The position numbers were made by a program, and so were the translations under genes. From Chitinophagaceae bacterium (GTDB taxonomy: Bacteria; Bacteroidota; Bacteroidia; Chitinophagales; Chitinophagaceae), in assembly GCA_947372105.1 (NCBI GenBank), contig CANBSH010000016.1, positions 1 through 44,643 of the forward strand: a stretch of DNA of 44,643 bases, given 5' to 3'. Below, piece after piece: positions 226 to 371 of this stretch. The notes under the pieces are model-generated. The model saw nothing but the letters and a program-made list of their open reading frames with translations, was not told where the DNA came from and made no database searches. Every line of letters starts with the position of its first letter. The stretch's first letter is position 1.

Positions 226-339
226 ATGAAACAGGTAACCACTTTTACTTTTACATCTAGTGCTTTTTTAGCACCTGTACCTGTTTTGAACAGCCCTATT
301 AGGTTGCCCCTTGCGGCTAGATGCCGACGTGGATTCTGA
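226..339 (+). CDS. Candidate arginine-operon leader peptide, 37 aa
   Basis: A short reading frame (ATG at 226, TGA at 337, then TAG in tandem) precedes the first arginine gene in the same frame. The peptide is Thr/Phe-rich at first, then has APVPVL, and ends PIRLPLAARCRRGF. It holds four Arg codons (AGG, AGA, CGA, CGT) at residues 26, 32, 34 and 35, three of them within the last six residues. The stop codon lies in the left arm of an 8-bp hairpin (336-343 with 364-371). An Arg-rich reading frame ending inside a hairpin ahead of an arginine operon is the layout of an attenuation leader. That role is inferred; no characterised homologue is known to me. It could also be a chance frame. Confidence 0.5.
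   Translation: MKQVTTFTFTSSAFLAPVPVLNSPIRLPLAARCRRGF
229..286 (+). promoter_or_regulatory. Inverted repeat over the start of the leader peptide
   Basis: AAACAGGTA (229-237), directly after the leader ATG, is perfectly complementary to TACCTGTTT (278-286), a 9-bp stem. Its loop contains a second small stem, GTGCT/AGCAC around 260-274. In RNA this could sequester the leader start region, and translating ribosomes would open it. The pairing is seen directly; the function is inferred. Confidence 0.4.
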
Positions 340-371
340 TAGGACGAGCAATTGGCACTTGCCCCTATCAG
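336..371 (+). promoter_or_regulatory. Hairpin at the end of the leader peptide (attenuator-like)
   Basis: CTGATAGG (336-343) and CCTATCAG (364-371) form a perfect 8-bp stem. An inner stem, GCAA (348-351) with TTGC (359-362), closes a 7-base loop. The left arm includes the tandem leader stops TGA TAG. CCTAT at 295-299 could alternatively pair with ATAGG (339-343), which is the competing pairing expected of an attenuator. No U-run follows, so it does not look like a standard intrinsic terminator. It may act on translation of the next gene, or it may be something else. Confidence 0.45.

Follow-up and report, generated by a model that had tools for sequence, protein, structure and literature searches.

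The classical leader-peptide attenuators are those of the trp, his and leu operons. Arginine is sensed in the Salmonella speF leader orf34, which controls ornithine decarboxylase and where, as far as the available part of that report goes, consecutive Arg codons (the 12th and 13th of 34 codons, part of the conserved HIRRT core; Pfam PF10940) act via ribosome pausing, the stop codon position matters, and Rho and mRNA structure are involved (PMC6386406). The partial account at hand of the Staphylococcus aureus rbfL uORF describes rare Arg codons which slow the ribosome when arginine is short; this uORF extends over the ribosome-binding site for a biofilm regulator, which it represses when arginine is limiting (PMC13009471). 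In Flavobacterium psychrophilum, leader-peptide attenuation has been suggested before amino-acid biosynthesis operons, and the accessible portion of the paper names pheA, hisG and others among the structured 5′ elements, arginine not being named there (PMC9723704), while sORFs in 5′ UTRs are reported for B. thetaiotaomicron in the part available of another study (PMC7366714). No arginine leader attenuator in Bacteroidota was found by title or beginning of abstract in the open-access literature searched. A first-pass annotation of the present locus had regarded arginine leaders of this type as not described for Bacteroidota; leader-peptide attenuation as such was already suggested in the F. psychrophilum paper, to judge from its accessible portion (PMC9723704).

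The window, i.e. the whole stretch of DNA that was analysed, comprises 44,643 nucleotides of a Chitinophagaceae bacterium (assembly GCA_947372105.1, contig CANBSH010000016.1). We read its positions ~200-439 as a ribosome-operated attenuator of the arginine operon, with a probability of roughly 0.87 and without any expression data. The short frame and the hairpin are real and almost certainly form a leader-peptide attenuator, and very probably the ribosome itself measures the arginine supply via the Arg codons of the leader. The features involved are the following.

189-196, + strand: loose -7-like promoter box TACTTTTA, resembling the Bacteroidota TANNTTTG; in 30/30 clade A loci, no transcript data
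226-339, + strand: leader ORF MKQVTTFTFTSSAFLAPVPVLNSPIRLPLAARCRRGF, with its UGA stop within the hairpin; kept in 30/30 relatives
229-238, + strand: P1 5′ strand AAACAGGTAA, pairing with 277-286
260-274, + strand: P2 hairpin GTGC...GCAC within P1; 97.5% of cells paired, outer pair exchanging GC/CG/AU
277-286, + strand: P1 3′ strand; 82.7% of P1 cells paired
295-302, + strand: CCTATTAG, 8-nt complement (one G-U) of the P3 left arm and possible competitor; not conserved
325-330, + strand: control codons CGA CGT, codons -4/-3 from the stop; Arg at -4 in 133/139 leaders (CGA in 119), at -3 in 108/139
336-343, + strand: P3a left arm CTGATAGG (CUGAUAGG), containing the leader UGA; 100% paired in 77 distinct sequences
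344-363, + strand: ACGA internal loop, P3b 348-351/359-362 and apical loop UUGGCAC 352-358; P3b with 84.8% of cells paired and compensatory changes
364-371, + strand: P3a right arm CCTATCAG (CCUAUCAG); 100% paired in 77 distinct sequences
403-407, + strand: GCCAA, candidate loop-loop partner of UUGGC 352-356; clade-linked co-occurrence
439-1047, + strand: GNAT acetyltransferase, first operon gene, TTG start (TTGGAAC in 30/30); Pfam PF13508/PF00583
1052-2251, + strand: argG, argininosuccinate synthase; Pfam PF00764 and PF20979

The leader frame starts with ATG and has 37 codons, with UGA at 337-339 and TAG immediately after it. Its four Arg codons (AGG 301-303, AGA 319-321, CGA 325-327 and CGT 328-330), its stop inside the left hairpin arm and the perfect 8-bp stem 336-343/364-371 without a U-run are all present as the first-pass annotation had claimed; its placing of Arg codons at 322-330 wrongly counted in codon 322-324, which encodes Cys. 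Against Pfam and NCBIfam, PF10940 included, the leader peptide gave no match at E 1, bearing in mind that short peptides can escape such profiles. The box at 189-196 is named after what we take to be the Bacteroidota -7 consensus (TANNTTTG-like); the motif is loose, and a box of this kind stands upstream of the leader in 91/139 loci against 49 expected in shuffles, with a -33-like element (TTG/TTT 17-24 nt further upstream) in only 7/30 clade A loci.

For the GNAT gene, the start at 352 given by the mechanical ORF list was rejected, since that frame contains stops in most relatives and the TTG at 439 is common to 30/30; with the latter start the gap between hairpin and GNAT is 67 nt. Aligned across the 139 loci, the first gene has a TTG or GTG start in about 128 and an ATG in about 10, and starts of the former kind would suit translational control. 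Leader and GNAT share a reading frame in the window. Programmed read-through of UGA-UAG into GNAT was discarded as a candidate, given that the relative frame of the two varies among relatives and that the UAG is lost where the stem is CTGACAGG. Downstream of argG, Pfam identifies a semialdehyde dehydrogenase, a class-III aminotransferase, an ornithine-type carbamoyltransferase, an amino-acid kinase, an M20 peptidase and a lyase, and we read the operon as GNAT-argG-argC-aminotransferase-carbamoyltransferase-argB-M20 peptidase-argH, the names being our own reading of the dehydrogenase, kinase and lyase as argC-, argB- and argH-like. Within the fetched stretches argG was present in 129 of the 139 loci with P3 and in all 66 without it; the stretches of the ten P3 loci where it was not seen hold just 454-1244 nt past the GNAT start.

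A search for GNAT in 101 genomes of the same genus found the gene in 90 (not in 11), and 30 fetched loci were examined first. All 30 carry a frame of 30-41 codons ending in RRGF, with the UGA inside an almost invariant P3; the TGA-TAG end and the nearly invariant stretch CGACGYGGNTTCTGATAGGACGAGCARTTGGCMNTTGCCCCTATCAGTGGAAAAA are found in each of them, the flanks and the middle of the peptide vary, and codon variation within RRGF (L016, L020, L026-L028) is synonymous. Other loci of the genus have different leader bodies with RRGC or RRGF ends. A frame without conservation would have refuted the first-pass annotation, and the frame was kept in all 30 relatives; of the conserved end that it had expected, PIRLPLAARxRRGF, only the RRG(F/C) or a PRPRR-like end is maintained and the PIRLPLAAR part is not.

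Beyond the genus, a first covariance model of the core matched 95 of 394 family genomes (26/101 genera) and none of the other 299, and a model rebuilt from the family matched 57/396 genomes in a draw from the order and 4/395 in a draw from the class, all of them of the same family. A hairpin pattern was found in 131/394 family genomes, with 0 for the reversed-pattern control; three of its matches (G346, G460 and G129) have no cognate leader and look like chance. The downstream gene was inspected for seven newly fetched pattern matches and for L145, not for every match. In a scan of public genomes at least 117 stretches matched, and the titles of the 80 matches listed are Chitinophagaceae, Chitinophagales/Chitinophagia, Sphingobacteriia or unclassified Bacteroidetes records, among them Sediminibacterium, Ferruginibacter, Terrimonas, Flavihumibacter, Flavisolibacter and Pinibacter; the record titles are our ground for calling the family of the matching genomes Chitinophagaceae. 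The window's own genome has one strong copy of the core. In one other genome (G418; L270, L271) the Arg leader occurs twice, with GNAT and an argG-like frame behind each copy. Left out of the 139 loci were one without a GNAT match (L066), one with no P3 in its short stretch (L161) and one repeat of genome G047 (L032).

In 93/93 family loci no stop interrupts the frame over 23 or more codons ahead of the hairpin. With the codons used for selecting the sequences left out, a clade of 32 leaders has a pN/pS of 0.32 in the reading frame and of 1.49 and 1.44 in the shifted ones, and the window's clade (codons 4-22) one of 0.65 against 0.96 and 0.88; when the motif codons used for picking are included the in-frame values are 0.29 and 0.55, respectively. 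The bias towards synonymous change, whose absence would likewise have spoken against the first-pass annotation, is thereby observed in both clades. Codon counts over the last 13 positions of 139 leaders, one per genome, place Arg at -4 and -3 as listed above and at -6 in 72/139. The Arg at -4 is CGA in 119 of 133 cases, and the third bases of the conserved Pro at -5 are evenly spread (19/19/18/18). Altogether CGA makes up 184 of the 392 leader Arg codons (47%) versus 57 of 1085 (5%) in the GNAT genes, and CGA, CGT and CGC together 354/392 versus 575/1085. A single inosine-containing tRNA-Arg decodes CGA, CGU and CGC, and the enrichment of these codons fits the sensing of one tRNA.

A second copy of the hairpin lies before proC in G234 (L145:1509-1600) and likewise in G297 and G381 (L265, L266), i.e. 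in 3/9 genomes of genus g46 in the pattern-search draw. The leaders of these copies end in PCPPPGC, PSPAPGC and PCPPPGC, with the UGA in the same CTGACAGG...CCTGTCAGTGAA stem as in the Arg leaders, and the three ORFs downstream match Pfam P5CR_dimer, the pyrroline-5-carboxylate reductase dimerisation domain (E 1e-31 to 3e-31). Since Pro codons take the place of Arg codons before proC, the ribosomes probably sense how far the tRNA for the pathway's own amino acid is charged. The proC copies have lost the ACGA internal loop, so that the stem, the stop and the cognate codons, which are all kept, appear to be the core. This natural re-aiming from Arg to Pro amounts to a built-in codon-swap experiment and suggests that sensing runs through the tRNA that decodes the last codons. 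The first-pass annotation had proposed an attenuator sensing Arg-tRNA charging, and its proposal is supported by this swap, by the CGA enrichment and by the missing ArgR described below.

The leader could instead be an arrest peptide of the type known from TnaC and SpeFL, in which the nascent peptide would stall on binding free arginine (or ornithine) inside the exit tunnel, the Arg codons being incidental. Residues beyond the Arg codons are indeed conserved (HTKQFAFH...GVYAVGFDVF), the pN/pS of 0.32 holds even without the motif, and the stop codon sits at a critical place. Nevertheless, the peptide bodies differ between clades while the CGA codons persist, the swap from Arg to Pro tracks the pathway, and the choice of CGA among Arg codons is not a property of the peptide, and we regard arrest as unlikely. 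The sensing of tRNA charging by the translating ribosome remains our preferred reading.

Folding of the window region as a single sequence is unremarkable (z -0.35 and -1.05), and for that reason the case for the hairpin rests on comparison. The P3 alignment holds 77 distinct sequences that were collected and aligned by a model or pattern of the same stem, a procedure which favours the percentage paired, though not the exchanges. In P3a one variable pair exchanges U-A, C-G and U-G and the other 7 of 8 pairs never vary, an invariance far beyond what base pairing alone demands. Covariation is seen in P3b too, apart from the innermost pair, unpaired in 44/77. The covariation score of P3 was reached by 0/500 shuffles and is destroyed when the partner is slid. 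An inverted repeat such as CTGAYAGG/CCTRTCAG is also a DNA dyad, and might therefore be an operator for a regulator protein. Against this, the variable P3a pair is U-G in 12 and C-A in 0 of the 139 loci, and the presence of U-G but never C-A argues, as far as sequence comparison can, for RNA and against a DNA operator; the two outer pairs of P3b deviate from Watson-Crick pairing only as G-U (3) and U-G (3), the dyad is locked to the reading frame and the stop of the leader, and ArgR was not found in the window's genome. We consider a DNA operator highly improbable, and take P3 to act as RNA.

Further pairings surround P3. In P1 of the window's clade, the codons that follow the leader ATG are paired with others from the middle of the leader; P1 and P2 together show 27 cells with double changes, whereas shuffles give 8.1 and slid controls 10 at most. 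The search for a conserved competitor of the P3 arms was negative, the full CCTATTAG complement being present in 7/30 clade A loci and 5/109 others. P3 loops with UUGGC are accompanied by a downstream GCCA in 34/35 loci versus 8/104 others, and ACC loops by a downstream UGGU in 53/64 versus 4/75, while for CTGGC loops a downstream GCCA occurs in only 3/18. An unsupervised measure of loop complementarity is weak (39 loops, mean 4.0 vs 3.73, with the observed value reached or exceeded in 9/500 partner shuffles). A contact of the P3 loop with downstream RNA is suggested by these alignments as a candidate only, the clade-wise contingency being strong but phylogenetically confounded. Separately, a conserved small hairpin GGAYUGGUNRUCC occurs ~25-50 nt past P3 and before GNAT in many of the loci L071-L154, and its UGGU is complementary to the ACCA of the P3 loop.

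Arg-rich leaders are not confined to loci with P3. Among 30 family genomes without a match to the core model, GNAT was found in 26, and an Arg-rich frame (two or more Arg among the last 6 codons, or three or more among the last 12) precedes it in 26/26 loci, versus 4 in the reverse complements and 4.1 expected in shuffles; these leaders end, for example, in RPVRRPRI or RVRR. In other families such a leader stands before GNAT-argG in 26/40 loci vs 9 in reverse complements and 5.6 in shuffles. The ArgR C-domain was found in 4/80 genomes, three of family f54 and a borderline case (G104) whose match lies exactly at the cut-off and contains an internal stop; in the three f54 genomes, where no leader was seen, 63-112 nt separate the end of the ArgR match from the GNAT match downstream. 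The window's genome (G000, 97.9% complete) gave no match to Arg_repressor_C, in a search whose controls in named genomes such as Bacteroides ihuae were positive. No Arg-rich frame was found in 14 of the 40 other-family loci, of which only three are in genomes with ArgR; several of these 14 loci lie in genomes without ArgR, and neither device explains them. The leaders suggest how arginine synthesis can be controlled in bacteria without ArgR, by a mechanism apparently common to many species of several families. Some family members without P3 (L177, L179-L189) have leaders of another type, which end in RR just before the stop; here an A-run following the ATG could form a helix with a G/U-run further into the leader, and this U-run might double as an intrinsic terminator within the coding frame.

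That Arg-ended leaders persist where P3 is absent also bears on whether P3/P1 could be a metabolite-binding riboswitch with the ORF as a bystander. The extreme conservation within the genus of P3 and its ACGA internal loop would be expected of such an element, and yet the covariance models of Rfam 15, riboswitches included, gave no match at gathering thresholds and none even at E 10, the leader frame is under coding selection, and the proC copies lose the ACGA loop while keeping stem, stop and cognate codons. A riboswitch is in our opinion very unlikely, and we return to the ribosome as the sensor.

How the position of the ribosome would be converted into expression can only be inferred. When charged Arg-tRNA (reading CGA/CGU/CGC) is short, the ribosome would wait on the Arg codons, and when it is plentiful the ribosome would reach the UGA and sit on the left arm of P3; P3, perhaps with the loop contact downstream, would form or not according to this position, and the expression of the operon would be set. 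Candidates for the output step are Rho-dependent termination or the translation of the first gene, Rho being equally possible. Between the hairpin and GNAT no intrinsic terminator of -3 kcal/mol or better was found in the window or in clade A, the best candidate in the 30 clade A loci reaching -0.9 kcal/mol, and 23/139 loci overall reach -3. Five loci of another subclade of the same genus (g1; L155, L158, L160, L162 and L164) carry a short hairpin, in most of them AACAC...GTGTT-like, and then, immediately ahead of GNAT, a T-run; this may be a true terminator, which the window does not have.

The polarity was approached by folding with a masked ribosome covering ~15 bases each way from the P site. 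The modelled probability of P3 is 0.82 when the RNA is free and 0.90, 0.76, 0.12 and 0.00 with codon -6, -4, -3 and the stop, respectively, in the A site. Because the modelled ribosome leaves P3 free at -6 and -4 and abolishes it at the stop, we slightly favour, by analogy with trp attenuation, that the formed P3 corresponds to the ON state. The opposite polarity, which was the reading of the first-pass annotation, is that P3 is OFF and that a ribosome at the last Arg codon blocks P3 and switches the operon ON; this is a real, if somewhat less probable, possibility, given the fall to 0.12 at codon -3, where Arg is present in 108/139. It sits less well with the ribosome at -4, the most conserved Arg, or at -6, which leaves P3 at 0.76 and 0.90, and in the model a blocked P3 made the GNAT start no more accessible: the value for that start remained at 0.53-0.54 under all ribosome masking, so that sequestration of the start codon is not supported by this model. 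As to the annotation's claim that a ribosome on the Arg codons decides P3, the modelled ribosome blocks the stem only at the last Arg codon or at the stop, and with a stall at the first CGA P3 is mostly formed.

We tentatively propose, short of even odds, a modular and terminator-less class of attenuators of this family in which the leader stop lies in a near-invariant hairpin, the ribosome position switches a contact between the P3 loop and a loop near the first gene, the last codons alone set the amino acid that is sensed (Arg, re-aimed to Pro), and Arg leaders stand in for ArgR. The device also offers a codon-programmable regulatory part for Bacteroidota.

In comparison with the described systems, the window leader differs from Salmonella orf34 in that it precedes arginine synthesis and has no Pfam or NCBIfam match, and resembles it in having consecutive Arg codons within the leader ORF, within the limits of the portion of that report available. 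With the rbfL uORF it has in common that the Arg codons of a short frame are rare ones. The available part of the rbfL paper describes no hairpin with an embedded stop, whereas the window leader has one (PMC13009471). The F. psychrophilum and B. thetaiotaomicron cases, also known here from partial sources, belong to the same phylum as the window. Unlike the trp, his and leu attenuators, the window's clade has no intrinsic terminator that could be found, has the stop inside the stem and P1/P2 over the leader start, and has arginine as the cognate amino acid. What it shares with those three operons is a short ORF in which codons for the amino acid made by the operon stand a few codons before the stop; that the position of the ribosome selects the RNA structure, as it does there, is for the window inferred from a folding model.
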